Shown here: positions 16,226 to 36,817 of the stretch, in pieces
How positions within the stretch are numbered: the first letter of the stretch is position 1
Layout of the letters: every line of letters starts with the position of its first letter
Position numbers and translations under genes: made by a program
Origin: Bordetella sp. BOR01
GTDB lineage: Bacteria > Pseudomonadota > Gammaproteobacteria > Burkholderiales > Burkholderiaceae_B
Length of the DNA stretch: 64,000 nucleotides
Direction of reading: 5' to 3'
NCBI RefSeq assembly: GCF_019218885.1
Contig: NZ_JAHUWT010000003.1
Location: forward strand, 310,001-374,000
The notes under the pieces: model-generated
What the model was told of the DNA's origin: nothing
Database searches by the model: none
Seen by the model: only the letters and a program-made list of their open reading frames with translations

Positions 16226-16320
16226 TTTAAGTGGTAAGAGTTTAGCATTGCCTGCAGGGGTGGAGGCCCGTGACTGGGGGGTGCCGCGGGCAGTGGGGCG
16301 GCTGGCGGCCTGCAGTGATG

Positions 16321-16413: not shown

Positions 16414-16446
16414 AAACAGCCAGGAATGGCACCGTTGCGGCGGCGC

Positions 16447-18876: not shown

Positions 18877-18958
18877 CCGAAGCCAACGAGGTTTACCGAA
18901 GATGTACGCAGTCCGCATGGATCCGGCCCGCTTGACCGCCGGGCCTTGAAAACAATAT

Positions 18959-19013
18959 GCGGCGTACGCCGCACCGGCGCACAGAATGCCGGGCCCGTAC
19001 GCCGCCGTACGCC
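18959..19013 (+). promoter_or_regulatory. Three CGTACGCC boxes upstream of the ABC transporter genes
   Basis: A 14-bp palindrome GCGGCGTACGCCGC (18959-18972) is followed by two direct CGTACGCC copies at 18996-19003 and 19006-19013, ten bases apart. All lie in the 167-base gap between the lyase and the binding-protein gene. Helically phased repeats suggest a protein-binding site, perhaps for separate control of transport, but low-complexity GC sequence could produce them. Confidence 0.35.
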
Positions 19014-19043
19014 TATCCAGGCGCAATCCCCAAGGAGGAAGAC

Positions 19044-20057: not shown

Positions 20058-20114
20058 GCGCCGCATCGAACCCAGCCCCGGCCCGTGGCCGGGGCGGCAA
20101 ACAGGAGGGCAGGC

Positions 20115-21832: not shown

Positions 21833-22840
21833 ATGCGCAACGACCGTCACGCCTGTCCCGATACCCAGCGGCGCAAGGCGCTGGGCCTGCTCGGTGCCGG
21901 CGCCATCGCCCTGGCCCCCTGGTCGCGCGGCCTTGCCGCCCCGCAAGGGTGGCCGCAGCGGCCCATCAGCTATATCGTGCCGTTCCCGCCAGGCGGCCTG
22001 ACCGACGTGGCGGCTCGCCAGGTCGGCCAGGCGCTGGCCACGGGCGAAGGATGGAATGTGGTGGTCGAGAACAAGCCCGGCGGCAGCGCCAACATCGGTG
22101 CCTCGCTGGTGGCCCGCGCCGATGCCGACGGCTATAGCTGGCTGGCCATCACGATGACGCACGCGGCCAATGCCACGCTGTTCGCCGGCAAGGCGGGCTA
22201 CGACCTGAAGAAAGACCTGGTGCCGCTGGCCGGCCTGGCCTCGTCGGCCATGATGGTGGTGGTCAATGCCAAGAGCCCCATCCGCAGCCTGGCGGAACTG
22301 ACCGCCGCGGCCAAGGCCAAGTCGCTGTCGGCCGGTTCCAGCGGCAACGGCACGCCGCCCCACCTGACCCTGGCGCTGTACCAGAAACTGACCGGCACCT
22401 CGCTGCTGCATGTGCCCTACAAAGGCGGCGCCCCTTCGCTTACCGACCTGATCGGCGGGCAGCTGGATGTGATTTTTTCCAACTATCCCGAGTCGCTGCC
22501 GCACGTCAAGAGCGGCACGCTGCGCGCGCTGGCGGTCAGCACCCAGGAACGCAGCCCCGACCTGCCCGATGTGCCCACGGTGGCCGAAGCCGGCCTGCCG
22601 GACCTGATCGTCGAGAACTTCACCGGCGTGCTGGGCCCGGCCGGCATGCCCGACGACCTGGTGCTGCGCATCGGCGGCGCCATCGAAAAGCAGGTGTCGC
22701 AACCCGCCATGCAACAAGCCCTGCATCGCCTGGGCTTCATCCCGCGACCGCGCGGCCCGGTCGCTTTCAAGCAATACCTGGACAGCGAAGTCGATCGTTG
22801 GGGCAAAATCATCCAGGAAGCCAAGATCCAGGTCGGCTAG
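21833..22840 (+). CDS. Bug/TctC-family receptor with Tat-like signal
   Basis: Periplasmic solute receptor, 335 residues, with AGGAG before the ATG. The leader contains RRKALGLLGAGAIAL, a twin-arginine-like motif ahead of a hydrophobic core, suggesting Tat export, unlike the Sec-type leaders of most Bug genes here. The mature part shows PISYIVPFPPGGLTDVAAR, VVVENKPGGSANIGASLV and LLHVPYKGGAPSLTDLIGG, which define the family. It sits between the ABC transporter and the dehydrogenases. It may act in uptake or sensing of the same substrate. Confidence 0.9.
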   Translation: MRNDRHACPDTQRRKALGLLGAGAIALAPWSRGLAAPQGWPQRPISYIVPFPPGGLTDVAARQVGQALATGEGWNVVVENKPGGSANIGASLVARADADGYSWLAITMTHAANATLFAGKAGYDLKKDLVPLAGLASSAMMVVVNAKSPIRSLAELTAAAKAKSLSAGSSGNGTPPHLTLALYQKLTGTSLLHVPYKGGAPSLTDLIGGQLDVIFSNYPESLPHVKSGTLRALAVSTQERSPDLPDVPTVAEAGLPDLIVENFTGVLGPAGMPDDLVLRIGGAIEKQVSQPAMQQALHRLGFIPRPRGPVAFKQYLDSEVDRWGKIIQEAKIQVG

Positions 22841-22901: not shown

Positions 22902-23831
22902 ATGCACATCGTCATTTCCGAATTCATGGATGAAGCGGCCGTTGCCGCGCTGCGCGCGGATTTCGACGTGCGCTACGAACCCGACCTGGTCGACCGGCGC
23001 GACGCGCTGCTGGCCGCCCTGGCCGATGCCGACGCACTGATCGTGCGCAACCGCACCCGGGTCGACGCCGCGCTGCTGGCGGCCGGCCCCGGGCTCAAGG
23101 CCGTGGGCCGCCTGGGCGTGGGCCTGGACAACATCGACGTGCCCGCCTGCCAGGCGGGCGGCATCGCGGTGCTGCCTGCCACCGGCGCCAATGCCCGCGC
23201 CGTGGCCGAATACGTCATGGCCACGGCCCTGATGCTGTTGCGCGGCGCCTATCAAAGCAGTGCACAGGTTGCGGCCGGCGCGTGGCCGCGCACCGAACTT
23301 TCCAACGGGCTCGAAGCCCAGGAGCGCACGCTGGGCATCGTCGGCTTCGGCGGCATCGGCCGGCTGGCTGCCAGCCTGGCGCAGGGGCTGGGCATGCAGG
23401 TCGCCGCCCACGATCCGCTGCTGCGCGACGAAGATCCCGCCTGGCGCGCAACAGGCGTGCAAGCCCTGCCGCTGGACGCCCTGCTGGCGCGCGCCGACGT
23501 GCTGACCCTGCATATCCCCTTGACCGATGCCACGCGCAACCTGCTGGACGCGGGCCGGCTGGCGTCCATGAAGCGCGGCGCCGTGCTGATCAACACGGCG
23601 CGCGGCGGCATCGTCGACGAAGCCGCGCTGGCGCAGGCACTGCGCAGCGGCCATTTGCGCGGCGCCGCCATCGATGTCTTCCAGGATGAACCGCTACCGG
23701 CCGGCAGCCCGCTGGCCGATGCGCCCAACCTGGTGCTGACGCCGCACATCGCCGGCCTGACCCAGGAAGCCAACACGCGCGTCTCCGGCATGGTCGCGCA
23801 GCGCGTGGCCCAGGCACTGCAAGCACGCTGA
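22902..23831 (+). CDS. slcC: D-2-hydroxyacid dehydrogenase, SlcC-like (sulfolactate dehydrogenase candidate)
   Basis: NAD-dependent dehydrogenase of the PGDH/formate dehydrogenase fold, 309 residues. It has the substrate loop VGRLGVGLDNIDVPAC, the nucleotide motif LGIVGFGGIGRLAASLA (about residues 144-160) and the catalytic Arg-Glu-His triad in INTARGGIVDEAAL, DVFQDEPL and TPHIAGLT. In the described Chromohalobacter pathway (S)-sulfolactate is oxidised by SlcC to sulfopyruvate, then reduced by ComC to the (R) form, which SuyAB cleaves. The presence of exactly these neighbours supports that role; family membership alone would allow other hydroxy acids. Confidence 0.68.
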   Translation: MHIVISEFMDEAAVAALRADFDVRYEPDLVDRRDALLAALADADALIVRNRTRVDAALLAAGPGLKAVGRLGVGLDNIDVPACQAGGIAVLPATGANARAVAEYVMATALMLLRGAYQSSAQVAAGAWPRTELSNGLEAQERTLGIVGFGGIGRLAASLAQGLGMQVAAHDPLLRDEDPAWRATGVQALPLDALLARADVLTLHIPLTDATRNLLDAGRLASMKRGAVLINTARGGIVDEAALAQALRSGHLRGAAIDVFQDEPLPAGSPLADAPNLVLTPHIAGLTQEANTRVSGMVAQRVAQALQAR

Positions 23832-23857: not shown

Positions 23858-24877
23858 ATGGCAACCGTAGACCTGAAGTCTTTGCATCAACTAGCCGCTG
23901 CCGCGCTGCGCGGCGCCGGCGCCAACCCCGACATGGCCGACAGCACGGCACGCGCGCTGGTCTATGCCGATGCGCAGGGCCTGCCCTCGCACGGGGTATC
24001 CCGCGTGCCCTCTTATGCGGCCCACGTACAGAATGGCCGCGCGGTGGGCGGCGCCGTGCCGCGTATCGCGCAGCAGCGCGGCGGCGCGGTGCTAGTCGAC
24101 GCCGGCGCGGGCCTGGCCTTCCCGGCCTGTGCCCTGGCCGTGCAAGAAGCGGCCGCCCGCGCGCGGGCGCATGGGGTAGCGTTCGCGGGCGTCACCAACA
24201 GCCATCATTTCGGCGTGGCGGCCTATCACCTGGACGCCCTGGCGCGTCAAGGCCTGGTCGGCCTGGCACTGGGCAATTCGCCGGCCGCCATGCCGGCCTG
24301 GGGCGGCAAGCGCGCACTGTTCGGCACCAACCCCATCGCGGCCGCCTTTCCGCGCCGCGATGCCGACCCGCTGGTCATCGACCTGTCGCTATCCGAAGTG
24401 GCACGCGGCAAACTGATGGTGGCCGCGCGCGAAGGGCGCGAGATTCCGCTGGGATGGGCCCTGGATGCCGACGGCAATCCCACTACCGACCCCCAGGCCG
24501 GGCTGGCCGGCAGCATGCTGCCCATGGGCGGCGCCAAAGGCGCCATGCTGGCCCTTGTCGTCGAACTGCTGGCTTGCGCACTGACCGGCGCGCACTTCGG
24601 TTTCGAGGCGGATTCCTTCTTCACCGAAGCTGGCAACCAGGCACGCATCGGACAAGCCTTCCTGGCCATCGACCCGGGCGCGCTGGCCGGCCAGGATGTC
24701 TACCTGGAACGTGTGGAGACCCTGGTTGCGGCCATGCTGGTCGACAGCGACGTGCGCCTGCCCGGCGCGCGGCGCGCCGGCCTGCAGCAGCGGGCCAGCC
24801 AGCAAGGCGTCGAGATTCCAGATGCCCTGCTGGCGCAACTGCGCCAATTGGCGAACCCGATGGCGGGCCAGGCCTAG
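23858..24877 (+). CDS. comC: Malate/L-lactate dehydrogenase family protein, ComC-like
   Basis: NAD(P)H-dependent oxidoreductase of the MDH2/LDH2 fold (not the Rossmann MDH), 339 residues. Family markers are SHGVSRVPSYAAHV near residue 47, VAFAGVTNSHHFGVAAYHL with the catalytic histidine, LGNSPAAMPAWGGKRALFGTNPIAAAFP, and MLPMGGAKGAMLALVVELL. (R)-sulfolactate dehydrogenase ComC belongs here. Together with the SlcC-like enzyme it could racemise sulfolactate through sulfopyruvate. It is the last gene of the plus-strand cluster and ends seven bases from the convergent exporter gene. Confidence 0.68.
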   Translation: MATVDLKSLHQLAAAALRGAGANPDMADSTARALVYADAQGLPSHGVSRVPSYAAHVQNGRAVGGAVPRIAQQRGGAVLVDAGAGLAFPACALAVQEAAARARAHGVAFAGVTNSHHFGVAAYHLDALARQGLVGLALGNSPAAMPAWGGKRALFGTNPIAAAFPRRDADPLVIDLSLSEVARGKLMVAAREGREIPLGWALDADGNPTTDPQAGLAGSMLPMGGAKGAMLALVVELLACALTGAHFGFEADSFFTEAGNQARIGQAFLAIDPGALAGQDVYLERVETLVAAMLVDSDVRLPGARRAGLQQRASQQGVEIPDALLAQLRQLANPMAGQA

Positions 24878-24884
24878 CGCCTGT

Positions 24885-25625
24885 TCACCAGAAGCCGCGC
24901 ACGCCGGCGATCACCAGCGCGACGCCGGACAAGGTCAGCAGCCCCAGCACCAGGCGGCGGAATGTCGCATCGCTGAAACGGCGGTACAGGTGCACGCCGA
25001 CCAGGGCAGGCACCAGCACGGCGGCGCCCACGATGGAGAACACCGGCACGGTCTGCGCGGTAAGCAGGCCGGCGGCGGCATAGCCGGCCAGGGTGACGCC
25101 GTGCATGGCCAGGTTGAAGCTCTGGAATACCGCGCGCTGCTGGTCGCGAGGCCAGCCTCGCAACACGCACCATAGTGTGGGCGCCGGCCCGGGCAAACCG
25201 CCAAAGCCGCCCATGGCGCCGCCCAGCCAGCCCACCGCCGCGTCGGCTGCGCGGCCGCCGCGCGTAATGCGCGGCAGTTCAGCCGCCAGCAGCATGGCGG
25301 GGCAATACACCAGCAGCACCACCCCCACGCCCAGCCTGAACGCGGCCGGATCCACATAGCGCAGCAAGGCCACGCCCAGCGGCACGCCGGCCAACCCGCC
25401 CAGCAGAAACGGCATCAGCCGGCGCCAATCGAAGCCATGCCGCAATGAACGCACCGCCAGCAACTGGCCGATCAGCGATCCGAACACCACGGCCGGCGCC
25501 GCCATCGCGGGCGGCAAGGTCCAGGACCAGAACGCCATTGCCACCAGGCCGAAGCCGAAGCCGGCCAGGCCCTGCACAAAGGCCGCCACGCAGGCGCCCG
25601 CCGCCAGCAACAACCAGGTTTCCAT
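24885..25625 (-). CDS. TSUP (TauE/SafE) family membrane exporter
   Basis: Integral membrane protein of 246 residues from the ATG at 25625 (METWLLLAAGACVAAF), with about eight hydrophobic segments and the internal duplication typical of TauE/SafE proteins. LIGQLLAVRSLRHG and GGLAGVPLGVALLRYVDP lie in repeat one, LGGAMGGFGGLPGPAPTLW in repeat two. TSUP members export sulfite or other sulfonate-derived anions, and some carry unrelated ions. An earlier start at 25682 would overlap the upstream ThDP gene. It ends convergently to the sulfolactate-type cluster, whose lyase would release sulfite. Confidence 0.82.
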   Translation of the reverse strand: METWLLLAAGACVAAFVQGLAGFGFGLVAMAFWSWTLPPAMAAPAVVFGSLIGQLLAVRSLRHGFDWRRLMPFLLGGLAGVPLGVALLRYVDPAAFRLGVGVVLLVYCPAMLLAAELPRITRGGRAADAAVGWLGGAMGGFGGLPGPAPTLWCVLRGWPRDQQRAVFQSFNLAMHGVTLAGYAAAGLLTAQTVPVFSIVGAAVLVPALVGVHLYRRFSDATFRRLVLGLLTLSGVALVIAGVRGFW

Positions 25626-25635
25626 CCGTCCGGGC

Positions 25636-27261
25636 TCAGGCTTGCCTGACCACAGGGGCGGGCAGGCCCGCCAGCGCGACATTCACGCACGTCGGTACAT
25701 CGGCGTGCACCGCGTCCTGCAAGGCGCGGGCCAGTTCGTCGGCCTGGTTCACCCAGGCGCCCCGCGCGCCGAAGCCTTCGGCCACCCGGTCATAGCGGGT
25801 GGGAAGCAGCTCGCAGCCGACCAGGCGTTCGGCACCGTAGCTGTTGAGCTGTATCTGGTATTCGGCGTTCCAGCGCGCGTCGTTGCCCACCACGCAGATG
25901 AAGGGCAGGCCGTAACGCACGGCGGTATCGATCTCGGCGCAATGGAAACCGAAGGTGCCGTCCCCCATCATGGCCACCACCGGCGCCCCGCGATGCGCCA
26001 GCCGGCCCGCCAGGGCCATGGGCAAGGCGCTGCCGATGGCGCCGGCCGCACCATTGATGACGCGATGCGGCGCGCGCAGGCAGGCCTGGGCCCATTGGCC
26101 GAACTCGCCGCCATCGCACACCAGGACTGAATCGGGATGCGTATCCAGCACCTGCTGCACTGCCCGGCACAGTTCGGCCGGATGCAGGCCATTCCCATTG
26201 CCGCTGCCATTGCCGCGCGCCTCGTTCCAGGCGGGCGGCCGGTACGCCAGGGCCGTCTCGACCTGCGCCAGCCATTCGGGTAAGCCGCGCAGCGACAATG
26301 ACGCCAGGCTGTCGAGCGCCGCATGGGTGTCGGCCAACAGCGTTTCTTGCAGGCGCTCGCCCAAGGCGCGGCGAGTGCGTGCCCATTCGCGCTCGTCGGC
26401 GTCGATCTGCATGAATACGCACGCGGCGTCGAACGCCTGGCCGAACTGCAGTGTGAAATCCAGGCGCTTGCCCAACAGCAGCACGCAGTCGGCACGCGCC
26501 AGCATCGGGGCGAACGCGCCCAGCGCGGGGTCGTTGGCCCCGCGCGGGCTTTCCGTGGCTACCACCGGCACGCCCCAGGCCTGCTGCAGCGCGGCCACCC
26601 GGGCGCGGCCCGCGTCGGTCAGCCCCTGCGGCCCCACCAGCACCAGCGGCCGCTGGGCACGCCCCAGGCGCGCCACCAGCGTGGCCGCCTGGCCGGCATC
26701 CAGCGGCATGGGCACCGGCGCGTAATCGCGCGCCACGGGCAAGGGGCCGTCGGCGGATTGTTCCAGCGTGTCGGTGGGCAGGCTCAGGTGCACGGGCCCC
26801 GGCCGGCCGCTGCGCGCCACCCGGCAGGCCCGGGCAAAGTCGGCCGCCAGTCCGGCCGCCGAGCCGGCCGCCCACGAGGCCTTGGTTACCGGGGCCGCCA
26901 TGGCGGCCTGGTCCATTTCCTGGAAAGCGCCCCAGCCTGCCTGGCGATTGGGCGCGTGGCCCGACAGCAGCACGACGGGCGATTCGGACATCTGCGCCGT
27001 GTACAGCGCGGACACCGCGTTCGCATGGCCGGGGCCGCCCGTCACCAGCGCCACGCCCGGCTCGCCCGTCAGGCGGGCCCAGGCATCGGCCATGTGCACC
27101 GCGCCGGCTTCGTGGCGCACGTGCACCAATTCGATACCGGCCGACAGGGCCGCATCGAAGACGGGCATGATGTGGTTGCCGGAAAGCGTGAACAGGCGGG
27201 TGATGCCCGCCGCCTTGATCGAGCGGGCCAGGGTATCGGCGCCGCGAGCGGAAACTGCCAT
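25636..27261 (-). CDS. ThDP-dependent enzyme of the acetolactate synthase/decarboxylase fold
   Basis: Thiamine-diphosphate enzyme of 541 residues with all three domains: PYR (1-170), central (190-320) and PP (360-541). The cofactor-activating glutamate is E51 in HVRHEAGAVHMADA, and the PP-domain metal motif is MMGDGTFGF with N in VVGNDARWN. The reaction is unassigned: relatives include acetolactate synthase, oxalyl-CoA decarboxylase and benzoylformate decarboxylase. It is not the two-part sulfopyruvate decarboxylase ComDE by architecture. The start has AGGAG eight bases upstream. In this operon it probably decarboxylates or cleaves a 2-oxo acid made by the upstream redox and hydratase enzymes, which is inference. 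A GNGSGNGNG linker precedes the PP domain. Confidence 0.85.
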   Translation of the reverse strand: MAVSARGADTLARSIKAAGITRLFTLSGNHIMPVFDAALSAGIELVHVRHEAGAVHMADAWARLTGEPGVALVTGGPGHANAVSALYTAQMSESPVVLLSGHAPNRQAGWGAFQEMDQAAMAAPVTKASWAAGSAAGLAADFARACRVARSGRPGPVHLSLPTDTLEQSADGPLPVARDYAPVPMPLDAGQAATLVARLGRAQRPLVLVGPQGLTDAGRARVAALQQAWGVPVVATESPRGANDPALGAFAPMLARADCVLLLGKRLDFTLQFGQAFDAACVFMQIDADEREWARTRRALGERLQETLLADTHAALDSLASLSLRGLPEWLAQVETALAYRPPAWNEARGNGSGNGNGLHPAELCRAVQQVLDTHPDSVLVCDGGEFGQWAQACLRAPHRVINGAAGAIGSALPMALAGRLAHRGAPVVAMMGDGTFGFHCAEIDTAVRYGLPFICVVGNDARWNAEYQIQLNSYGAERLVGCELLPTRYDRVAEGFGARGAWVNQADELARALQDAVHADVPTCVNVALAGLPAPVVRQA

Positions 27262-27306
27262 CGAAGAGACTCCTTGTCCTGCAACGGTGTGATTATCCAG
27301 GGCGCG

Positions 27307-28305
27307 CTACTTGAGTGAAATGCCGGTGGTGCGACCCAGTTTCTGGTATTCCTGCACCTGCGCCTGCACGAACTCGCGCGTCGGTCCGGCGGCGCGCACG
27401 TCCGGCACGCTGCCCAGCTTGCGGGTGCCGTCGTTCCAGGCCGTATCCGACGATACGCCACGCAGCACGTCGGCCCATTTGCGCACCGCCGCGTGGTCCA
27501 TGCCCGGCGGGCCATACAAAGCGCTCCACCCGGTAATGGCCTCGAGCTGCGGAAAGCCCGCCTCGCGCGCGGTAGGCACGCCGGGCAGCGTCTGCAGGCG
27601 TGCCGGCGTGGTCGTCACCAGTGCGCGCAGCCGGCCATCGTTCAACGGACCCGAGATCGGCGCGTAATTGGTACAGACGAAATCCACCTGCCCCGACATG
27701 GTGGCCAGCGTGGCCTCGCCCGACCCCTTGTAGGTAATGGGCATGGCCGCGGCGGGCGGCAAGCCCAGCACGCTGAACAGCAGCTGCGGGCCCAGGTTCA
27801 GCACGGTGGCCGGACCGGTGGTGGCATAGTTCAGCACGCCCGGCCTGGCCTTGATCGCCGCCACCAGATCGGCCAGCGACCGGTAGGGCGAGTTTTTCGG
27901 AACCGCGCATACATACGGGTTCAGTTCCAGCAGGCCCAGAAAAGTGAAGTCGTCCCATTGATACGACAGGCTGGTTTGCAGGGCCGGCAAGATGGCCTGC
28001 GACCCGACCCGCGCCATCAACAGCGTGTAGCCGTCCGGATCGGCGTCTTTCACGTATTGCGAGCCGATGGCGCCGTTGGCGCCGGCGCGGTTGAGCACCA
28101 CCAGGGGCTGCCCCAGGTACCGCTGCGCCACGGCGGCCAGGTTGCGGGCCGCCAGGTCGGCATCGCCCCCCACGCTGAATGGGGTCACCAGCGTCACGGC
28201 CCGCTGCGGATACGTCTGCGCCGCGCCATTGCCTGCCAGCGCCAGGCTCGCCACCAGCCACCCCGCGGCCGCCAGCAGCCGCCATATCGTTGCTTTTATA
28301 GCCAT
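27307..28305 (-). CDS. Bug/TctC-family periplasmic solute receptor
   Basis: Receptor of 332 residues with a Sec signal (WLVASLALAGNGAAQ/TYPQRAV). The mature segment has VTLVTPFSVGGDADLAARNLA, where the usual P(Y/F)xPGG motif is changed to PFSVGGDAD. LVVLNRAGANGAIGSQYV and PITYKGSGEATLATMSGQVDF follow. The changed loop means the ligand pocket may differ from the carboxylate receptors elsewhere in the window. It lies inside the minus-strand operon between the flavoprotein and the ThDP enzyme, so it likely recognises the substrate of this pathway. Confidence 0.88.
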   Translation of the reverse strand: MAIKATIWRLLAAAGWLVASLALAGNGAAQTYPQRAVTLVTPFSVGGDADLAARNLAAVAQRYLGQPLVVLNRAGANGAIGSQYVKDADPDGYTLLMARVGSQAILPALQTSLSYQWDDFTFLGLLELNPYVCAVPKNSPYRSLADLVAAIKARPGVLNYATTGPATVLNLGPQLLFSVLGLPPAAAMPITYKGSGEATLATMSGQVDFVCTNYAPISGPLNDGRLRALVTTTPARLQTLPGVPTAREAGFPQLEAITGWSALYGPPGMDHAAVRKWADVLRGVSSDTAWNDGTRKLGSVPDVRAAGPTREFVQAQVQEYQKLGRTTGISLK

Positions 28306-28386
28306 TGTCGTCTCCTTGGGCGTCTTGAGCGCCGATCCCTCGCTATCCCGGCATCCGGCACCTTGCGTGTCCGGCCCCAGGCTCGA

Positions 28387-30120
28387 TCACGCGGCCGCCT
28401 GCTCCAGCAAGGTCTGTCCGGGCTGCACGCGAGTGAACTGCACAGGTTGCCGGCTGACCTGCATGGCGCCATCGTGCTGCGCCACCACGGAAAACCACGA
28501 ATGCTCCAGGTCGCGCACGTCGGGAAAATCGGCCCGGAAGTGAGCGCCGCGCGAGTCTTCGCGCGCCAGCGCGGCTCGCACGATGGCTTCGCTGACGTGC
28601 ACCAGGCTTTCCAGGTTCAGCCAATCGTGCCAGGTCATGTTGTAGGGGCGGGCGGCTTGCGCCACGCCGGTACGGTCGAGCTCGCCGCGCAGCACGGCCA
28701 GCGCGGCCAGCGCCCGGTTCAGGCCCGCGGCATCGCGCACGATGCCCGCATCGTCCCACATCAACGTCGACAACTGCTCGCGCAAGGCATGCAGGTCGCC
28801 CCCGCGCCGCCCCAGCGGCGCCTGCACACGCACCAGGGCCGCCTGCACCACCGCGGCGTCTGGTTCGGCCCAGTCCTGGGCCGGCACCCATTGCGCCATG
28901 GCGTCGCCCGCGATGCCGCCGAATACCGTCGAATTGGCCACGCCATTGCCCCCCAGCCGGTTCGCGCCATGCACGCCGCCCGTATCTTCACCAGCGGCGT
29001 ACAGCCCCGTCAGCGCCGTGCGGCAATCGGGTTGGAACAGCACGCCGCCCATCATGTAATGGGCCGTGGGCACCACCTCGACCCGGCCCCCCGCCAAGTC
29101 GAAGCCACAATCGGCGCAGCGTTCCACCATGCCCTTGAACTGCCGGCGCACCTGCTCGGGCCCCAGATGGGCCATTTCGATATACACGCCGCCATTGGGC
29201 GATGTACGCCCCGCACGCATCTCGGCATAGATGCCGCGCGACACGATATCGCGCGTGGCCCGTTCGGCGCGCGCATCCACCGCCTGCATGAAGCGCTGGC
29301 CCGCGCCGTTGAGCAGGTATCCGCCCGAGCCGCGCAGGCCTTCTTCCAGCACGGTTCCCGTCATCCGGGTATCGGTCCCCGCCAGCAAGCCGGTGGGATG
29401 GAACTGCACCATTTCCATGTCGCGCAAGCCCAGGCCCGCGCGCAACGCCATCGACAGGCCATCGCAGCTCTTGTCGCCCGAGGGGGTGTGAAAGCGGTAC
29501 ATCGTCGGGCCGCCGCCGGTGGCCAGCAACACCGCCTTGGCCCGCACCAGCACGAATTCGCCCGTGCGAATGTCTATCATCAGCACGCCCGCGATGCGCC
29601 TGCCGTCGCGCGAGGGCACCAGTTCAACGGCACGATGCTCTTCCATGCGATGGATGCGGCGCGCCCAGACTTGCTCGGCCAGCCGGTTGATGATCTCGAT
29701 GCCGGTCAGGTCGCCCTTGTGCACGGTGCGGTCGAAGGTCTGGCCGGCAAAGGCCTTCTGGTGCAGCGTGCCATCGGCGTTGCGGTCGAAGAAGCAGCCC
29801 AGCTCGTTTTCCAGTTCATGGATGCGCTCGACGGCCTTGTTCACCAGCGTCCAGGCCAGTTCCTGGTCGGGCAGCCATTTGCCGCCCTCGATGGTGTCCA
29901 TGAAATGCCGCTCGGGCGAATCGCCTTCGGCCAGCGCCACGTTGTAGCCGCCCTGCACCATGCGAGTACAGCCGCATTTGCCCAGCAAGCCCTTCACCGC
30001 CACGGTGATATCCAGGCCGGGCGCCGTGTCGTGCGCGTGCAGGGCCGCGAACAATCCGGCGCCGCCCGACCCCAGGATCAGCACATCGGTCTGCCGCACG
30101 GGCACATCGGCCGCGCTCAT
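28387..30120 (-). CDS. Fumarate reductase/succinate dehydrogenase-like flavoprotein subunit, no covalent-FAD histidine
   Basis: FAD-binding catalytic subunit of 577 residues; start at 30120 overlaps the hydratase stop by four bases (ATGA). Dinucleotide loop LILGSGGAGLFAALHA is at residues 14-29. Catalytic elements of the SDH/FRD family are kept: MEMVQFHPTGL, the Arg in ATRDIVSRGIY, HYMMGGV and GANRLGGNGVANSTVFGG. In SdhA/FrdA the FAD is bound through the His of SHTVxAxGG; here the aligned residue is Cys51 (CGCTRMVQGG), so FAD is probably non-covalent as in aspartate oxidase. The four subunits are all encoded in this operon. Substrate is probably a C4 dicarboxylate or analogue rather than succinate itself, by context. 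Confidence 0.85.
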   Translation of the reverse strand: MSAADVPVRQTDVLILGSGGAGLFAALHAHDTAPGLDITVAVKGLLGKCGCTRMVQGGYNVALAEGDSPERHFMDTIEGGKWLPDQELAWTLVNKAVERIHELENELGCFFDRNADGTLHQKAFAGQTFDRTVHKGDLTGIEIINRLAEQVWARRIHRMEEHRAVELVPSRDGRRIAGVLMIDIRTGEFVLVRAKAVLLATGGGPTMYRFHTPSGDKSCDGLSMALRAGLGLRDMEMVQFHPTGLLAGTDTRMTGTVLEEGLRGSGGYLLNGAGQRFMQAVDARAERATRDIVSRGIYAEMRAGRTSPNGGVYIEMAHLGPEQVRRQFKGMVERCADCGFDLAGGRVEVVPTAHYMMGGVLFQPDCRTALTGLYAAGEDTGGVHGANRLGGNGVANSTVFGGIAGDAMAQWVPAQDWAEPDAAVVQAALVRVQAPLGRRGGDLHALREQLSTLMWDDAGIVRDAAGLNRALAALAVLRGELDRTGVAQAARPYNMTWHDWLNLESLVHVSEAIVRAALAREDSRGAHFRADFPDVRDLEHSWFSVVAQHDGAMQVSRQPVQFTRVQPGQTLLEQAAA

Positions 30121-30728
30121 CGCGTCACTCCCAGGCTGGCCAGCACGGCCTGGCGCCGGGCGGCGACGTCCTCGGCCACCTGGTCGTACAGCGAACCCCC
30201 GTGGCTGTCCATCGCCACCAGCAAGGGCCCGAAATCGCGAATGCGGAACTTCCACAGGGATTCGGGGTTCAGGTCGTCGAGGTCGACATCTTCGATGCAC
30301 TCGATCCAGGTGGTCTCCAGCGCCGCGGTACCGCCCACGATGCCCAGATAGGCGCCGCCCAGTTCCGCAAAGGCCTTGCTCGAGCCCTGGTGCATGCCGC
30401 CCTTGCCCACGATGAGGCGTACCCCGCATTGCCGCATCAGTTGGGCAGTGAAGCGTTCCATGCGCGAAGAGGTCGTGGTGCCGATGCACACGGATTCATA
30501 GCCGGCCGGGCTCTGCGGCGTGGCCGCCACTTTGCGCACATTGGGCGCGGTATGGATGACCGCATGGCCGTTCATGTCGAAGCGAGTGGCGCGGCCCTGG
30601 TCGAACAAGGCGATATAGCTGGCGTCGCGTATGCCGAACAGCGTGTGCTGCAAGGTCACCGTATCGCCCACGCGCAGCGCGCGCGCCTGCGCTTCGGTCA
30701 CCGGCATGGCCAGGTTGTGATGAGTCAT
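30117..30728 (-). CDS. Class I fumarase/tartrate dehydratase, beta subunit
   Basis: Small subunit, 203 residues, of a two-part iron-sulfur hydro-lyase. Family motifs are LRVGDTVTLQHTLFGIRDAS, VGKGGMHQGSS (about residue 128), GAYLGIVGGTAALET and WKFRIRDFGPLLVAMDSHG. Two-subunit enzymes of this group include tartrate dehydratase TtdAB and archaeal-type fumarase. It starts 20 bases after the alpha subunit and overlaps the flavoprotein start, showing that hydration and oxidation are coordinately expressed. Confidence 0.9.
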   Translation of the reverse strand: MTHHNLAMPVTEAQARALRVGDTVTLQHTLFGIRDASYIALFDQGRATRFDMNGHAVIHTAPNVRKVAATPQSPAGYESVCIGTTTSSRMERFTAQLMRQCGVRLIVGKGGMHQGSSKAFAELGGAYLGIVGGTAALETTWIECIEDVDLDDLNPESLWKFRIRDFGPLLVAMDSHGGSLYDQVAEDVAARRQAVLASLGVTR

Positions 30729-30748
30729 GGTTGCAGTTCCTGGTGCGC

Positions 30749-31627
30749 TCAGAATCCGTACTGCACGCCCTGCGGCGTGAAGCTGGCCCGCGCGCGGCGC
30801 GCCGAGTGGCATTGCATATTCACGGCCACCGGATTCATGGTGATGTGCGTGGCGGCCAGTTCCACATGCACCGCAAAGGCCGTGGCGTCGCCGCCCAGCC
30901 CCTGCGGCCCCACCCCCAGCTGGTTCACGGCCGCCGACAGCTCGCTTTCCAGCTGCGCGCCCAGCGCGTCGTCGCAGCGCGAGCCCAGCGGCCGCGTGGC
31001 GGCCTGCTTGGCCAGGTGCACGCACAAGTCCGAAGTACCACCCACCCCCACGCCCACGATGGTGGGCGGACAGGTCTTGCCGCCGGCCTGCATCACGCAG
31101 TCGATGACGAATATCTTGACGGCATCCAGCCCTTCGGCCGGAATCGCCATGCGCAAGAACGAGTTGTTCTCGGACCCGCTGCCCTTGGGGATCATCTCGA
31201 TCTCCAGCCGCTCGTCTTCTTCGCAAAAATCGACATGGATGACGGGTACCCCCGGCCCGCAGGACGTATGCGCGTTCTTGCGGCTGATGGGGTGCACCAC
31301 GCTCGAGCGCAACGGGTGTTCGCGCGTGGCGCGTTCACAGCCGGCACGGATGGCCTGTTTCAGGCGCCAGCCGTCCAGCGCCACGCGGCGGCCCACCAGC
31401 ACGTTGTAGATGGGAATGCCGGTGTCCTGGCACAGCAGGTTGTCGCGGTCTTCGGCGACCGCGATATTAGTGGTCATGGTGTCCAGGATGGACCGTGCGC
31501 GCTCGGACGATTCGGTACTGCGCAGGCGCTCGAAGCCCTGCTTGATATCGTCGGGCAGGCGCTTGAGCGCCCGTATGTACAGTTCGCGCGCGGCATCTTC
31601 CACCTGCGCATAATCGATCTCGGACAT
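30749..31627 (-). CDS. Class I fumarase/tartrate dehydratase, alpha subunit
   Basis: Iron-sulfur subunit of 292 residues. The three cysteines that hold the [4Fe-4S] cluster are visible: LLCQDTGIPIYNV (C66), the middle GGKTCPPTIVGVGVGG, and GTSDLCVHLAKQA. HPISRKNAHTSCGPGVPV and GSGSENNSFLRM are also conserved. Its relatives reversibly hydrate fumarate, mesaconate or dehydrate tartrate. Here it is made together with an SDH/FRD-like complex that could supply the unsaturated acid, so a malate-like product is expected. The start follows the membrane subunit by three bases. Confidence 0.9.
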   Translation of the reverse strand: MSEIDYAQVEDAARELYIRALKRLPDDIKQGFERLRSTESSERARSILDTMTTNIAVAEDRDNLLCQDTGIPIYNVLVGRRVALDGWRLKQAIRAGCERATREHPLRSSVVHPISRKNAHTSCGPGVPVIHVDFCEEDERLEIEMIPKGSGSENNSFLRMAIPAEGLDAVKIFVIDCVMQAGGKTCPPTIVGVGVGGTSDLCVHLAKQAATRPLGSRCDDALGAQLESELSAAVNQLGVGPQGLGGDATAFAVHVELAATHITMNPVAVNMQCHSARRARASFTPQGVQYGF

Positions 31628-31630
31628 GAT

Positions 31631-31984
31631 TCAACCCAGCATGTTGGCAACGAACAGCAAAGACACCGCCAGCGACGCGGCCGTGCCGACGGCGATCCAG
31701 CCCCGCCGCAAGCCGCCCCAGGGGGCGAACTCGATCCACAACAGGCGCAAGCCGCCGGCCAGGTGCACCGCCAGGCACAGCACCAGGGCCCATTCGCCGA
31801 ACTTGAAAATGGGCGCTTCGTACCAGCGCAATGCGCCATCCAGCGCGGCTTCGCCCTGCAACGCCAGCCCCAGCGTCCAGAAGTGCACCGGCAGGAAGGC
31901 CAGCAGCAGCAGGCCGGACACACGGTGCACGGCAAACGCCAGCCAACTGGCGTGCATACGGGCGCGCAGGTCATTGCGGCGCAT
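31631..31984 (-). CDS. SdhC/FrdC-like cytochrome b membrane subunit
   Basis: Membrane anchor of 117 residues with three hydrophobic segments. The succinate dehydrogenase cytochrome b motif is seen in HASWLAFAVHRVSGLLLLAFLPVHFW, whose HRxSG and following His are quinone and heme-site residues; this was read in two overlapping pieces. Start at 31984 leaves a single base to the preceding anchor gene. With the adjacent 113-residue protein it completes a two-anchor complex that passes electrons between the flavoprotein and the quinone pool. Confidence 0.82.
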   Translation of the reverse strand: MRRNDLRARMHASWLAFAVHRVSGLLLLAFLPVHFWTLGLALQGEAALDGALRWYEAPIFKFGEWALVLCLAVHLAGGLRLLWIEFAPWGGLRRGWIAVGTAASLAVSLLFVANMLG

Positions 31985-31985
31985 G

Positions 31986-32327
31986 TCAGCCCCCAAGAGT
32001 GACGGCGGCCACGGCGCGCCAGCCCAGCACCAGCAGCAGCGCGCCGGCCACAAGCCCCGCGGGGCCGGCCGCCTTGCGCAGCGGCGCCGATTCGTCGAGC
32101 ACGTTGCGCAAGCCGATGGCCGCGTGCACCGACACCAGCAGCACGAAAATGCCGTAGAACGCCATCCAGGCCAGGCTGCCACGCGTGCGGCCCAGGATCT
32201 CGGCCGCACTGAGGCCGCCTCGCACCGCCAGCGTGATGATGGCCAGGTGGGCCAGCACGAACAGCGCCATGGCGGCGGCGCTGGCGCGCTGCCAGTACCA
32301 GCGCCGCGCGGCGCGCGCCGCGCTCAT
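31986..32327 (-). CDS. SdhD/FrdD-like membrane anchor subunit
   Basis: Second hydrophobic anchor of 113 residues with three predicted helices: ASAAAMALFVLAHLAIITLA, AWMAFYGIFVLLVSVHAAIG and PAGLVAGALLLVLGW. Histidines in helices one and two (LAHLA, SVHAA) are placed for heme b ligation. The sequence is divergent, so the call depends on hydrophobic pattern, size and position between the iron-sulfur and cytochrome b genes. It overlaps the iron-sulfur gene by four bases. Confidence 0.8.
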   Translation of the reverse strand: MSAARAARRWYWQRASAAAMALFVLAHLAIITLAVRGGLSAAEILGRTRGSLAWMAFYGIFVLLVSVHAAIGLRNVLDESAPLRKAAGPAGLVAGALLLVLGWRAVAAVTLGG

Positions 32328-33133
32328 GGGGCGGCTCCGGACAGGCTGGCCGGGTTGCCGGCGCCGGCCTCGGCATCATCGGCATCGGCCTCGGCCTCGG
32401 GCAGTTCGCCGCGCAGGGCGGCCCGCGCGGTCACGCGCTTGAGCCCGGCGATGGCGGCGGTAGGCGCGATGCCCTTCGGACATCGCACCGTACAGGAACC
32501 CTGCGTATGGCAGGCGTGGCAACCGGCATCGCCCGCTACCGCGGCGAGACGCCGCGCCCCGGCCGTATCGCGTTCATCGTTGACCAGCGTCCAGGCGCGA
32601 TTGAGCGCCGCCGGACCCAGGAACCGGGGTTTCCAGCTGACCACATCGCACGAGGCATAACAGACCCCGCAACCTATGCATTCGATGCCGGCGTCGGCGG
32701 TGCGCCGCGCACGCGATGCCGGATCGACACGCGCCACCGGGTCATGGCGGCCGGCCGGCCCCGCGAAGCGGCCCTGGGCACGCTGCCATTTGTCGAAGAA
32801 CGGCGCCATGTCGGTGACCAGGTCCTTGACGACAGGCAGGTTCGACAGCGGCGCCAGTTCGATGCGGCCGCCGCTTGCCACGCGCGATACGTGCGTGCGG
32901 CAGGTCCAGCGTGCCACGCCATTGACCGTCATGGCGCACGAGCCGCACATGCCCACGCGACAGGCGTAGCGGTACGACAGCGTGGGGTCCAGGTGGCGCT
33001 GGATATGGGTGGCCACGTCCAGCACGGTCTGGTGGTCGCGGCGCGGTACCTCGAACGCCTGGAAGCCGCCGTCGGCACCGCCGCGCCAAACGCTGACTTG
33101 CAGGACACCAAGGGGCGAATCTTGCTGCGGCAT
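32324..33133 (-). CDS. SdhB/FrdB-like iron-sulfur subunit
   Basis: Electron-transfer subunit of 269 residues, first gene of the nine-gene operon. The [2Fe-2S] set is ACRVGMCGSCAMTVNG plus the later WTCRT; the [4Fe-4S] set is CIGCGVCYASC; the [3Fe-4S] set is CHTQGSCTVRCPKG. I use the ATG at 33133 (MPQQDSPLG); a TTG at 33187 would add 18 residues without similarity. The C-terminus carries an acidic stretch EAEADADDAEAG not usual for SdhB. The spacer to the divergent LysR gene holds AT-rich promoter sequence. Confidence 0.9.
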   Translation of the reverse strand: MPQQDSPLGVLQVSVWRGGADGGFQAFEVPRRDHQTVLDVATHIQRHLDPTLSYRYACRVGMCGSCAMTVNGVARWTCRTHVSRVASGGRIELAPLSNLPVVKDLVTDMAPFFDKWQRAQGRFAGPAGRHDPVARVDPASRARRTADAGIECIGCGVCYASCDVVSWKPRFLGPAALNRAWTLVNDERDTAGARRLAAVAGDAGCHACHTQGSCTVRCPKGIAPTAAIAGLKRVTARAALRGELPEAEADADDAEAGAGNPASLSGAAP

Positions 33134-33251
33134 GCCTGTTTCACCCAGGAAAAGCAACGTTCTTAATACTGCCGCGCGCTTTGACAAAAGTAAAACTATT
33201 AATTATTTTTGATAGACCAAGTTTTTCTTATAGCTATCCGCGAGGCTCGCC
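33134..33251. promoter_or_regulatory. AT-rich divergent control region between the SDH/FRD-like operon and its LysR regulator
   Basis: The 118 bases are far more AT-rich than the surroundings. A dyad CTAT-N12-ATAG (33196-33215) encloses TAATTATTTTTG, and a second CTTATAGCTAT lies at about 33228. Dyads near T-N11-A spacing between a lysR gene and its divergent target are typical LysR-type sites. Inducer-dependent activation of the operon is expected but not shown. Confidence 0.5.
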
Positions 33252-34124
33252 ATGTCATCCATCCGGCAGTTCCGTACCGCCCTGGCGGCCGCCCAACTGG
33301 GCAGCTTCGTGGCCGCGGGCCGCCACGTGGGGCTGACCCAGGCGGCCGTCAGCCTGCAGATCAAGAATCTGGAAAGCGAACTCGACACGCAGCTATTCGA
33401 ACGCCGCGCGCAAGCGGCGGTGCCCACGCCGCACGGCCGCCAGGTGCTGGCCGAACTGGAAGACCTGGTAGCCCGCTACGAACAGTTGCTGGCGCAAAGC
33501 GGCGATACGCTGCGCGGCAGCCTGCGCATCGGCACGCTGGTGTCGTCGTTGATGGGTACTTTCGGCACGGTGCTGGCACGCATCAAGCGCGACTACCCCG
33601 CCCTGCACATCACCCTGCTGGCGGGGCAGTCGGCCGACTTCGCGGCGCGCGTGGCGGGCGGCGAACTCGATGCCGCCGTGGTCACCGAACCGCCGCCTGG
33701 CGTCGAGCCCACGCTGGTATGGACGCCGCTGTACCAAGAGCCCCTGGTACTGATCGCGGCCGCACGGCTGCGCCGCAAGTCGGTGGCCTCGCTGCTGGCG
33801 ACCGAGCCCTTCCTGCAATTCGACCGTTCGCTCTGGACCGGCCATCTGATCACCGAGGCCCTGGCCCGCCAGGGCGCCACGCCAAACACGATTCTGGAAC
33901 TGAACTCCATCGAGGCCATTGCCGAACTGGTGCGCCAGGATTACGGGGTGGCGGTGGTGCCGCTGCTGGCCAATGCCGATTGGCGCGCCAGCAAGCAATT
34001 GGCCGTCAAGCCATTACCGGGGCCGGCCATCCTGCGCCGGGTCGGGATGCTGGAGCGGCGGCGCCACGGGAAGCTGGCGATCACCCGTACCTTACGGGGG
34101 GTGTTTGCGCAGAACGCTAGGTAG
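33252..34124 (+). CDS. LysR-family transcriptional regulator
   Basis: Regulator of 290 residues. The N-terminal winged HTH is IRQFRTALAAAQLGSFVAAGRH with GLTQAAVSLQIKNLESEL as recognition helix region (about residues 27-45), then a linker helix. The co-inducer domain begins near GSLRIGTLVSSLMGTF, and its second half has SIEAIAELVRQDYGVAVVPLL. It is divergent from the nine-gene SDH/FRD-fumarase operon, 118 bases away, so it is the likely local activator. Confidence 0.92.
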   Translation: MSSIRQFRTALAAAQLGSFVAAGRHVGLTQAAVSLQIKNLESELDTQLFERRAQAAVPTPHGRQVLAELEDLVARYEQLLAQSGDTLRGSLRIGTLVSSLMGTFGTVLARIKRDYPALHITLLAGQSADFAARVAGGELDAAVVTEPPPGVEPTLVWTPLYQEPLVLIAAARLRRKSVASLLATEPFLQFDRSLWTGHLITEALARQGATPNTILELNSIEAIAELVRQDYGVAVVPLLANADWRASKQLAVKPLPGPAILRRVGMLERRRHGKLAITRTLRGVFAQNAR

Positions 34125-35233: not shown

Positions 35234-36817
35234 ATGACCGTGACCGATACCGCTGCCAGCCGCCTGGCCCGTCTACAGGCCCATCCCGCCCTGCTCGCCC
35301 AGACCCTGCGCGGCATCGAAAAAGAAGGGTTGCGAGTCGACACCCGCGGCAAGCTGGCATCCACCGCCCACCCGTCGGGCCTGGGCGCGGCCCTGACCAA
35401 CGAGCACGTCACCACCGATTATTCCGAAGCGCTGCTCGAACTCATCACCGGCACCCACAACCGGGTCGAGCCTTTGCTGGCCGAACTGGAAAACACCCAC
35501 CGGTTCGTCTATAGCGTGCTCGACGGCGAATACATCTGGAACCAATCCATGCCGGCGACGCTGCCCGCCGAAGCCGACATCCCCATCGCCTGGTACGGCA
35601 CGTCCAATACCGGCATGCTCAAGCATGTCTACCGGCGCGGCCTGGCCGAACGTTACGGCAAGGCCATGCAATGCATCGCCGGCGTGCACTACAACTTCTC
35701 GCTGTCCGATGCGGCCTGGGAAACCCTGGACCCCGGCACCCCCAGCGCCCAAGACCGGCGTTCGCGCGGCTATATCGCCCTGATCCGCAATTTCACGCGC
35801 TATTCCTGGCTGCTGATGTACCTGTTCGGCGCCGCGCCGGCACTGTCGCGCAGCTTCATGGGCGATCGTCCGCATCCATTGCAGGCCCTCGATGCCGACA
35901 CCCTGTACCTGCCCCACGCCACCAGCCTGCGCATGAGCGACCTGGGCTACCAGAACAACAACGCACAAGCGCAGCTCAAGCTCTGCTACAACGACCTGGA
36001 AACCTTCCTGGCCCGGCTGTATGGTGCCGTCACGCAGCCCTGGCCCGACTACCAGGCCATCGGCACGCATCGCAACGGCGAATGGATCCAGCTCAACACC
36101 AACGTGCTGCAGATCGAAAACGAGTACTACTCCAGCATCCGCCCCAAGCGCGCCACCGGCCGCGGCGAACGCCCGGTCACGGCGCTGGCCGAACGCGGCG
36201 TGCAATATGTGGAAGTGCGCTGCCTGGACATCGACCCGCAGCAGCCCGCCGGCATCGCCGCCGACACCGCGCGCTTCATGGACGCCTTCCTGCTGTTCTG
36301 TGCAACGTCCGACAGCCCGTTCTTTATGCAGGACGGCTATTGCCAGCGCAGCGCCGACAACTTCTCGGTCGTGGTCAAAGAAGGTCGCAAGCCGGGCCTG
36401 CTGCTCGATCGCGATGGCGCGGCCGTCAGCGTGCCGGCCTGGGGCCACGAACTGCTTGACCAGGTCGCCCCGTACGCCGCGCTATACGACCAGGCGCTGG
36501 GCGGCGACGCCTATGCGCGCGCGCTGCAAGCCCAGCGCGCCAAGCTCGACCATCCCGACGCTACGCCCTCGGCGCGCCTGCTGGCCGACCTGCGCGACGG
36601 CGGCATCTCGTTCCACGACTATTCGCTGCAACTCAGCCGCCAGCACGCCCAGACGCTGCGCGCCCAGGCGCTGCCCGCCGATGTCGCCGCCAGCTATGCC
36701 GAAACCGCACGCCGGTCGCATGCCCAGCAAGCAACGCTGGAACAAACCGACGACGTCGATTTCGACACCTACGTGGCGCGCTATCACGCCGCGCTGAAGG
36801 CACCGGGCCAATCCTGA
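35234..36817 (+). CDS. gshA: Glutamate-cysteine ligase
   Basis: First step of glutathione synthesis: ATP-dependent formation of gamma-glutamylcysteine. The 527-residue chain is of the gammaproteobacterial type (E. coli 518). Typical blocks are RGIEKEGLRVDTRGKLA near residue 25, TTDYSEALLELITG, WNQSMPATLP, IAGVHYNFSL, GYQNNNAQ, IQIENEYYS-like LQIENEYYSSIRPKR and YVEVRCLDIDPQQPAGI. Two short bases CT before AGAATATCGATATG give little Shine-Dalgarno support, but the N-terminal similarity fixes the start. It is monocistronic here. Confidence 0.95.
   Translation: MTVTDTAASRLARLQAHPALLAQTLRGIEKEGLRVDTRGKLASTAHPSGLGAALTNEHVTTDYSEALLELITGTHNRVEPLLAELENTHRFVYSVLDGEYIWNQSMPATLPAEADIPIAWYGTSNTGMLKHVYRRGLAERYGKAMQCIAGVHYNFSLSDAAWETLDPGTPSAQDRRSRGYIALIRNFTRYSWLLMYLFGAAPALSRSFMGDRPHPLQALDADTLYLPHATSLRMSDLGYQNNNAQAQLKLCYNDLETFLARLYGAVTQPWPDYQAIGTHRNGEWIQLNTNVLQIENEYYSSIRPKRATGRGERPVTALAERGVQYVEVRCLDIDPQQPAGIAADTARFMDAFLLFCATSDSPFFMQDGYCQRSADNFSVVVKEGRKPGLLLDRDGAAVSVPAWGHELLDQVAPYAALYDQALGGDAYARALQAQRAKLDHPDATPSARLLADLRDGGISFHDYSLQLSRQHAQTLRAQALPADVAASYAETARRSHAQQATLEQTDDVDFDTYVARYHAALKAPGQS

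Follow-up and report, generated by a model that had tools for sequence, protein, structure and literature searches.

A complex II-like operon beside sulfolactate sulfo-lyase genes in Bordetella sp. BOR01 is a candidate for 3-sulfopropionate breakdown

The window analyzed here is a stretch of 64,000 nucleotides from Bordetella sp. BOR01, and our subject is an operon of nine minus-strand genes (33133-24885) in which a dehydrogenase resembling succinate dehydrogenase (SDH) and fumarate reductase (FRD) is encoded together with a class I iron-sulfur (Fe-S) hydratase. The first-pass annotation of this DNA had noted overlaps or short gaps, and neighboring genes indeed overlap or are at most 81 bp apart. 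Read from the 33133 end, the operon encodes an SdhB/FrdB-like iron-sulfur subunit (32324-33133; TIGR00384, 181 bits for a cut-off of 88; Fer2_3 and Fer4_8 domains), in whose translation the 2Fe-2S, 4Fe-4S and 3Fe-4S cysteine motifs can all be read by eye, and two membrane anchors, one SdhD-like (31986-32327; TIGR02968, 30 bits, below the cut-off of 41.8) and the other an SdhC-like cytochrome b subunit (31631-31984; Sdh_cyt, 46 bits, above cut-off; TIGR02970, 50.6 bits for a cut-off of 52.3). These are followed by the alpha (30749-31627; Fumerase, 295 bits) and beta (30117-30728, with the start at 30728; Fumerase_C, 99 bits) subunits of the class I hydratase, a proposed 3-sulfoacrylate hydratase, and by an SdhA/FrdA-like flavoprotein (28387-30120; FAD_binding_2, 252 bits; Succ_DH_flav_C, 95 bits), a proposed 3-sulfopropionate dehydrogenase. 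The last three genes encode a Bug/TctC periplasmic receptor (27307-28305; TctC, 143 bits), a thiamine diphosphate (ThDP)-dependent enzyme (25636-27261; TPP_enzyme N, M and C domains) and an anion exporter of the TauE/SafE (TSUP) family (24885-25625, alternative start 25682; TauE, 118.9 bits). Eight of the nine proteins exceeded their Pfam cut-offs, the 113-residue SdhD-like anchor being slightly under (Sdh_cyt, 25.1 against 25.8 bits). The NCBIfam models indicated the same kind of protein for seven of the nine and gave no match for the TSUP and Bug proteins; among the matches listed, only some SdhB and hydratase alpha models passed their cut-offs.

Upstream of the operon, an AT-rich region (33134-33251) separates it from a divergent LysR regulator gene (33252-34124, plus strand; LysR_substrate, 127 bits; HTH_1, 61 bits), which bears out the control region previously described. 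Its GC content is 41.5%, compared with 66.6% for the window, and a value this low or lower was found in 2 of 3194 sampled windows of 118 bp. By eye, an inverted CTAT-N12-ATAG motif can be seen at about 33196-33215. On another contig, the genome carries a canonical SdhA with the histidine motif that links flavin adenine dinucleotide (FAD), a class II fumarase and a class I fumarase. The operon copies are therefore not the only ones of this genome, which answers a question raised by the first-pass annotation.

The operon's last gene is separated by 7 bp from the end of a convergent plus-strand cluster that the annotation did not mention. Its nearest gene encodes a ComC-like Ldh_2 dehydrogenase (23858-24877; Ldh_2, 345 bits), for which the best NCBIfam model was L-sulfolactate dehydrogenase at 216.7 bits, below the cut-off of 500. 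Next to it lies the gene of an SlcC-like D-2-hydroxyacid dehydrogenase (22902-23831; 2-Hacid_dh domains), whose best NCBIfam model was phosphoglycerate dehydrogenase, under cut-off, and which shares 59% identity with a Sinorhizobium mexicanum protein whose gene is about 1 kb away from a SuyB-like one. At the far end of the cluster are suyA (17376-17657; SAF domain) and suyB (17701-18876; GD_AH domains), for the small and large subunits of (R)-sulfolactate sulfo-lyase. The products are 81% (over 93 residues) and 83% (over 391 residues) identical to SuyA and SuyB of Cupriavidus pinatubonensis HN-2, where the two genes sit in an array of hpsN, hpsO, a major facilitator superfamily gene, a dehydrogenase gene, suyA and suyB. 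The layout of this array matches that of the hpsRNOUPsuyAB cluster for 2,3-dihydroxypropane-1-sulfonate (DHPS) given for C. pinatubonensis JMP134 in the accessible part of PMC11382572. Between the lyase and dehydrogenase genes are those of an ATP-binding cassette (ABC) transporter of the NitT/TauT/SsuABC type (18957-21786; binding protein 18957-20057, ATPase 20085-20912, permease 20824-21786) and of a second Bug/TctC receptor (21833-22840; TctC, 185 bits). The best NCBIfam kinds for the transporter were aliphatic sulfonate (binding protein), nitrate/taurine (ATPase) and SaoP/nitrate/sulfonate (permease), all under their cut-offs. A GntR/UTRA regulator gene (16447-17205, minus strand; UTRA and GntR domains) diverges from suyA. 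In the sections available of PMC12421959 and PMC9594981, SlcC and ComC form a two-enzyme sulfolactate racemase that precedes SuyAB. Both dehydrogenase families are present in the suyAB cluster of the window, and family membership and position make the pair putative sulfolactate dehydrogenases.

We then compared 94 neighborhoods of the flavoprotein gene, namely the window, 13 plasmid loci (of 18 records matched) and the best 80 of 563 relatives, many of them on short contigs. Members of the family came from Burkholderiales and from Alphaproteobacteria, among them Methylobacterium and Paracoccus, and more distant ones from haloarchaea. A hydratase alpha subunit at least 60% identical to that of the window, called type 1 hereafter, was present at 70 loci including the window; at 13 loci the identity was below 60%, and at 11 the subunit was absent or out of reach. 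SdhB was seen at 60 of the 70 type-1 loci and the anchors at 61 and 62, SuyB at 37, ComC at 39 and the ThDP gene at 31 (29 at 50% identity or more, two at 25%). The core of the operon is thus conserved, while the exact set of nine, whose conservation the first-pass annotation had wished to see checked, is not, as the ThDP, Bug and TSUP genes vary. Full flanks of at least 9 kb on both sides were available for 56 of 93 loci, of which 38 were type 1; SuyB lay within about 10 kb at 25 of these 38, and at least one of SuyB, ComC, SlcC, TSUP, YeiH and SorA at 30. In Methylobacterium oryzae, a single stretch contains SdhB, the anchors, the hydratase, SdhA, the ThDP enzyme, TauE (on the other strand), SuyAB, a symporter, SlcC-like and ComC-like proteins, a molybdopterin oxidoreductase and a sulfate-exporter-family protein, and so holds nearly the whole scheme proposed below. 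Genes annotated as sulfite oxidase or sulfite dehydrogenase are near the operon at two plasmid loci.

Some of these neighborhoods showed features of their own. Two of them (L070 and L084) each contain two SuyAB-like copies. Four loci (L079, L110, L113 and L117) come from metagenome bins titled Bordetella parapertussis; their SdhA-like proteins are only 71-73% identical to that of the window and cluster with betaproteobacterial bins, apart from the Alcaligenaceae sequences that lie next to the window, and the bins are probably mislabelled. On the plasmid of an arsenite oxidizer (L043:24155-26680), a tripartite ATP-independent periplasmic (TRAP) transporter gene, an annotated sulfolactaldehyde 3-reductase gene and gabD stand behind the operon; these genes could feed 3-hydroxypropanesulfonate or DHPS into the operon pathway.

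The association with SuyB was also measured on whole genomes, calling SuyB at 60% identity or more. In a sample of 300 genomes of the order, the identity bar kept 51 of 56 SuyB genomes and dropped five (35-38% identity). SdhA-like proteins, called at an E value of 1e-100 or better, were found in 39 of the 300, and SuyB accompanied them in 38 of the 39, compared with 13 of the 261 others (Fisher test, p = 8e-36, a value that ignores kinship between genomes). In 31 of the 38 genomes both genes were on the same contig, with starts 2.6-18.5 kb apart in 30 of these. Co-occurrence of the two genes is near-obligate in this order, and the two are linked. A phylum sample of 349 genomes, partly overlapping with the first and in which 1 of 13 SuyB genomes was dropped (36% identity), contained SdhA-like proteins in only 8; SuyB was present in 4 of these 8 versus 8 of the 341 others (p = 5e-5). 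HpsN, known to feed SuyAB from DHPS and searched at E 1e-130, was not found in the Bordetella sp. BOR01 genome, and was found in 9 of the 300 order genomes and in 7 of the 38 with both SdhA-like and SuyB. Among the 51 SuyB genomes, 31 had the SdhA-like protein without HpsN, 7 had both and 1 had HpsN only; SuyB was accompanied by the SdhA-like protein in 38 of 51, compared with 8 of 51 for HpsN.

Looking at the residues of the flavoprotein, we aligned the window protein with those of 92 loci (one of 93 was dropped by a length or stop filter). The window protein is 34% identical to E. coli SdhA. Residues H241, R290, H354 and R388, equivalent to His242, Arg286, His354 and Arg399 of E. coli SdhA, which we take to be its catalytic residues, were kept in all 93 proteins. 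In contrast, the position of SDH Thr254, presumably a contact of the substrate carboxylate, was Glu259 in 93 of 93. Glu259 is preceded by an insert of six residues (five in two haloarchaea and Rhodococcus) that carries Thr254 in the family's own numbering in 93 of 93, and position 252 was Arg in 90 and Lys in 3. Of the two carboxylate sites, then, one seems to be preserved and the other remodeled, as would be required by a substrate with one carboxylate and one sulfonate. A Glu near a sulfonate is not the first expectation; our guess is that Arg252 pairs with Glu259. A further change affects the FAD motif, where Cys51 stands directly before the invariant Thr52 in all 93 proteins in place of the histidine of E. 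coli SdhA, which we take to bond FAD covalently in SDH. In the anchors (61 and 48 loci passed the filter, plus the window), His74 of the SdhC-like subunit was kept in 62 of 62 aligned proteins and His68 of the SdhD-like subunit in 49 of 49, at positions that presumably bind heme b in ubiquinone-type SDH. Of the NCBIfam models, thiol:fumarate reductase TfrA scored highest with the flavoprotein (512.9 bits, below the cut-off of 718). In a quick tree, a long branch separated all 93 flavoproteins from E. coli SdhA and FrdA, two outgroup rows that do not fix the place of the family in the superfamily.

3-Sulfopropionate differs from succinate in having a sulfonate instead of one of the two carboxylates; in the same way, 3-sulfoacrylate is the analogue of fumarate and 3-sulfolactate that of malate. 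3-Sulfopropionate is a product of the anaerobic fermentation of sulfoquinovose and DHPS and of homotaurine use, and Cupriavidus necator H16 is reported to excrete it. We propose, with a probability of about two in three, that the operon carries genes for 3-sulfopropionate breakdown, its complex II-type dehydrogenase and class I hydratase feeding SuyAB. The membrane-bound, quinone-linked SDH-like complex would oxidize 3-sulfopropionate to 3-sulfoacrylate and pass the electrons to ubiquinone, and the hydratase, whose proposed substrate is 3-sulfoacrylate rather than fumarate or tartrate, would add water to give 3-sulfolactate. SlcC and ComC would interconvert the sulfolactate enantiomers via sulfopyruvate, SuyAB would cleave (R)-sulfolactate to yield pyruvate and sulfite, and the sulfite would leave the cell through the TSUP protein. 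Uptake is probably the role of the Bug proteins and the ABC transporter. It is because SuyAB and the SlcC/ComC-like pair adjoin the operon that 3-sulfolactate is indicated as the hydrated product, and hence 3-sulfopropionate as the substrate. The neighborhood agrees with the first-pass annotation as regards oxidation of a sulfonated succinate analogue by an SDH-like enzyme, hydration and sulfite export, and departs from it on the substrate it named and on the cleavage step: the adjoining SuyAB, and not the ThDP enzyme that had been thought to cleave a malate analogue, is indicated as releasing sulfite. The system is real, conserved and functionally coherent, and probably provides the genes of a pathway that had been proposed earlier and for which we found no genes in the open literature. 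The substrate, direction, regiochemistry, stereochemistry and electron acceptor are what we infer from the gene content.

More than one kind of hydratase accompanies this flavoprotein family. In the hydratase alpha subunits aligned, Cys66, Cys186 and Cys273 were kept in 76 of 76 sequences. At 12 loci we found another FumAB pair (type 2), about 30% identical to type 1. The Rhodococcus RHA1 locus, one of the 13 with identity below 60%, belongs to neither type (alpha 47% identical) and has SuyB about 20 kb away. The idea that type-2 loci never go with SuyAB was weakened: Paracoccus versutus and P. ferrooxidans encode SuyB at a distance of about 23 kb, P. seriniphilus has it on a separate plasmid, and the type-2 genomes G158 and G438 carry it on another contig. 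Genes resembling coenzyme A (CoA)-acylating methylmalonate-semialdehyde dehydrogenase were observed near two of the 12 type-2 operons, with a fragment at a third (L040:17409-18899; L049, about 11084; L050, about 10883, the fragment). The final gene of the type-2 operon of Pseudomonas sp. MPC6 passes the cut-off for this enzyme, in Cupriavidus sp. P-10 a dehydrogenase 60% identical to it is encoded about 3 kb away from SdhA, and Methylobacterium nodulans has a fragment of such a gene; a partial match was also found at the edge of L138, where no FumAB is in reach. As a speculation, hydration at C3 by the type-2 enzyme might give the bisulfite adduct of malonate semialdehyde, and from it sulfite without a lyase. 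We hold it doubtful, though worth stating, that the complex is a 3-sulfopropionate:quinone oxidoreductase of a new respiratory enzyme type with FAD bonded to the invariant Cys, served by a type-1 hydratase that adds water at C2, making sulfolactate for SuyAB, and a type-2 hydratase that adds it at C3, leading to sulfite and malonate semialdehyde with no sulfo-lyase.

Other proteins may stand in the place of FumAB. Two haloarchaea have relatives of SdhA and SdhB together with TauE, a SuyAB-like pair (33-34% identity, hence under the 60% bar and named SuyAB-like only) and an argH-like gene where FumAB would be expected. The argH-annotated genes (L042:12365-13867 and L046:12287-13789) are divergent beside the SdhA/SdhB-like genes, and their products may not be argininosuccinate lyases. 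The Haloarcula protein scored 323 bits with the argH model, above cut-off, and 257 bits with XcbC of coenzyme M synthesis, below the cut-off of 575. The XcbC pathway, whose enzyme belongs to the same superfamily, presumably runs through sulfoacrylate; an open paper inspected for this point does not name that compound. Sulfoacrylate as the common intermediate of lyase and hydratase variants is no more than suggestive, and the haloarchaeal support is weak because the SuyAB-like proteins are so distant. A looser association is that with aconitase-X-like proteins, encoded near the SdhA-like gene at three loci (L128:6162-7409, with no FumAB in reach; L048:9515-10747; L133, about 3869); one of these loci has a type-1 hydratase in addition, another a type-2 one.

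Several observations weigh against 3-sulfopropionate breakdown. The proposal draws on genome evidence and leaves the ThDP gene without a place: this enzyme is below the cut-offs of 25 NCBIfam models among the matches listed, the best being acetolactate synthase and 2-hydroxyacyl-CoA lyase, and its nearest Protein Data Bank (PDB) chain is a 2-hydroxyacyl-CoA lyase. A role as the sulfoacetaldehyde acetyltransferase Xsc was rejected (TIGR03457, 199 bits against a cut-off of 676), and no Xsc passed the cut-off genome-wide. TSUP was seen at only 15 of the 70 type-1 loci, and 8 of the 38 with full flanks have none of SuyB, ComC, SlcC, TSUP, YeiH and SorA. As for co-occurrence, genome G211 has the SdhA-like protein without SuyB, in G098 the two genes are 1.9 Mb apart on one contig, and 12 of the 51 SuyB genomes have neither the SdhA-like protein nor HpsN. 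Of the four phylum-sample genomes with both, two combine a type-2 hydratase with a SuyB located on a different contig, and in one there is no FumAB within 1.5 kb. No SuyB was found within the flanks of the 12 type-2 loci, nor at E 1e-60 in the type-2 genomes G345, G476, G498 and G614, which belong to the phylum sample and lie outside the order; at the two haloarchaeal loci no anchor was matched. The alpha subunit exceeds the NCBI cut-off for fumarate hydratase (NF004885, 307.6 bits against 276). In E. coli FrdA, succinate oxidation is spoiled when the bond between FAD and its histidine is missing; as the FAD-linking histidine is lost and replaced by Cys in 93 of 93 flavoproteins, the oxidative direction is insecure. 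Finally, AlphaFold modeled the flavoprotein poorly around the active site, with a mean predicted local distance difference test (pLDDT) score of 73 and values below 50 at residues 44-82, 108-139, 211-216, 237-243, 249-255 and 385-392, and no inference was drawn from it.

These observations lend some weight to other explanations. The two that concern fumarate-like chemistry and the absence of markers, namely the score of the alpha subunit and the 8 of 38 loci without any of the six markers, would suit an accessory C4-dicarboxylate metabolism, in which a spare succinate dehydrogenase and a fumarase or tartrate dehydratase merely travel with sulfonate genes. We consider this rather unlikely given that SuyB was present in 38 of 39 SdhA-like genomes and linked to the operon, that the residue presumed to contact the substrate carboxylate is invariably changed, and that canonical SdhA and fumarases are encoded elsewhere in the genome. 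The loss of the covalent FAD histidine and the TfrA model as top score (512.9 bits, cut-off 718) would instead suit the reverse direction, in which sulfolactate would be dehydrated to sulfoacrylate and quinol would then reduce this to 3-sulfopropionate, the step acting as an electron sink. SuyAB would however compete for the sulfolactate, sulfite exporters are near the operon as are the sulfite oxidase or dehydrogenase annotations at two plasmid loci, and two anchors with conserved histidines suit ubiquinone reduction, all of which makes this direction quite improbable.

The remaining alternatives keep the direction and change the substrate. Sulfosuccinate, which the first-pass annotation had considered compatible together with substituted succinates, would be converted to sulfofumarate, 3-sulfomalate and, through oxidation with release of CO2 (a step that ComC or the ThDP enzyme might carry out), sulfopyruvate, then sulfolactate for SuyAB. 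This route ends at the same compound, it gives the ThDP enzyme a job, and a di- or tri-anion suits the Bug/TctC receptors; it nevertheless calls for an extra oxidative decarboxylation to which no conserved gene is dedicated, the ThDP gene occurring at 31 of the 70 type-1 loci, including two where the identity is 25%, and the rebuilt distal site fits a changed distal anion better than an added side group. No sulfosuccinate pathway was found in the literature by titles or abstract openings. We judge sulfosuccinate an unlikely substrate, and the adjoining SuyAB and SlcC/ComC-like genes make substituted succinates less likely as well. Another alkyl-sulfonate or sulfinate of similar shape, such as 3-sulfinopropionate or a 2-substituted sulfopropionate, might follow the same order of reactions, and a gene annotated as 3-sulfinopropanoyl-CoA desulfinase is indeed located about 11 kb from the Sulfitobacter SdhA; by simple chemistry, though, only the unsubstituted C3 sulfonate yields 3-sulfolactate by dehydrogenation and hydration, and we hold this option to be very improbable. 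For 3-sulfopropionate, a C3 compound, the conserved enzymes are exactly those needed to arrive at sulfolactate.

Apart from these genes, a 39-nt inverted repeat (arms 95% complementary, 25 nt apart) lies at 16316-16418, between the GntR gene and its left neighbor, and resembles a dispersed palindrome. Past the LysR gene and on the same strand is a glutamate-cysteine ligase gene (35234-36817; PF04262).

If the proposal is true, a complex of the tricarboxylic acid (TCA) cycle has been re-tooled for an organosulfonate and delivers its electrons into the respiratory chain; in any case, concrete candidate genes for 3-sulfopropionate degradation are now named. In the accessible part of PMC11489063, degradation of 3-sulfopropionate is unreported except for Roseovarius nubinhibens, for which the thesis of Mayer, as cited there, proposed the sequence homotaurine, 3-sulfopropionate, sulfoacrylate, sulfolactate. 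The intermediates are the same as here, and no genes named for the steps were seen in that part of the text. The available sections of PMC9594981 state that 3-sulfopropionate degradation needs investigation, and those of PMC12890257 that the mechanism in Bilophila remains unclear as of 2026. In the open literature we found no named genes for this breakdown and no paper pairing a sulfopropionate name with fumarate hydratase or succinate dehydrogenase; most subscription papers and the thesis were beyond the search, so such genes may already be in print.

Compared with known enzymes, the complex shares with complex II the four-subunit gene set, the Fe-S motifs, two anchors that keep their histidines and the four catalytic residues, and its FAD_binding_2 and Succ_DH_flav_C domains are those of the superfamily. 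It differs by 34% identity to E. coli SdhA, by the 5-6 residue insert, by Glu in place of Thr254 and by Cys in place of the FAD-linking histidine, the last two being replacements of traits of SDH and FRD proper in 93 of 93 proteins; moreover, its genomic link is with SuyAB and not with TCA genes. The hydratase likewise resembles class I fumarase and L-tartrate dehydratase (TtdAB) as a two-subunit Fe-S enzyme with alpha and beta domains and three cysteines, and differs in that two divergent types, about 30% identical, accompany one SdhA family. Among sulfonate pathways, the SlcC/ComC-SuyAB module of Chromohalobacter and Paracoccus wurundjeri, as far as the accessible text of PMC12421959 describes it, has in common with the window suyA-suyB, slcC-like and comC-like genes and a TauE-family exporter. 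Here HpsN was not found in the genome, no sulfosugar genes were recognized among the proteins inspected beside the operon (no genome-wide sulfosugar search was made), and the feeder would be the SDH/hydratase operon. In the hpsRNOUPsuyAB cluster of C. pinatubonensis, according to the available part of PMC11382572, sulfolactate is formed from DHPS by a nicotinamide adenine dinucleotide (NAD) enzyme, whereas in Bordetella sp. BOR01 it would be formed from 3-sulfopropionate by a respiratory one.

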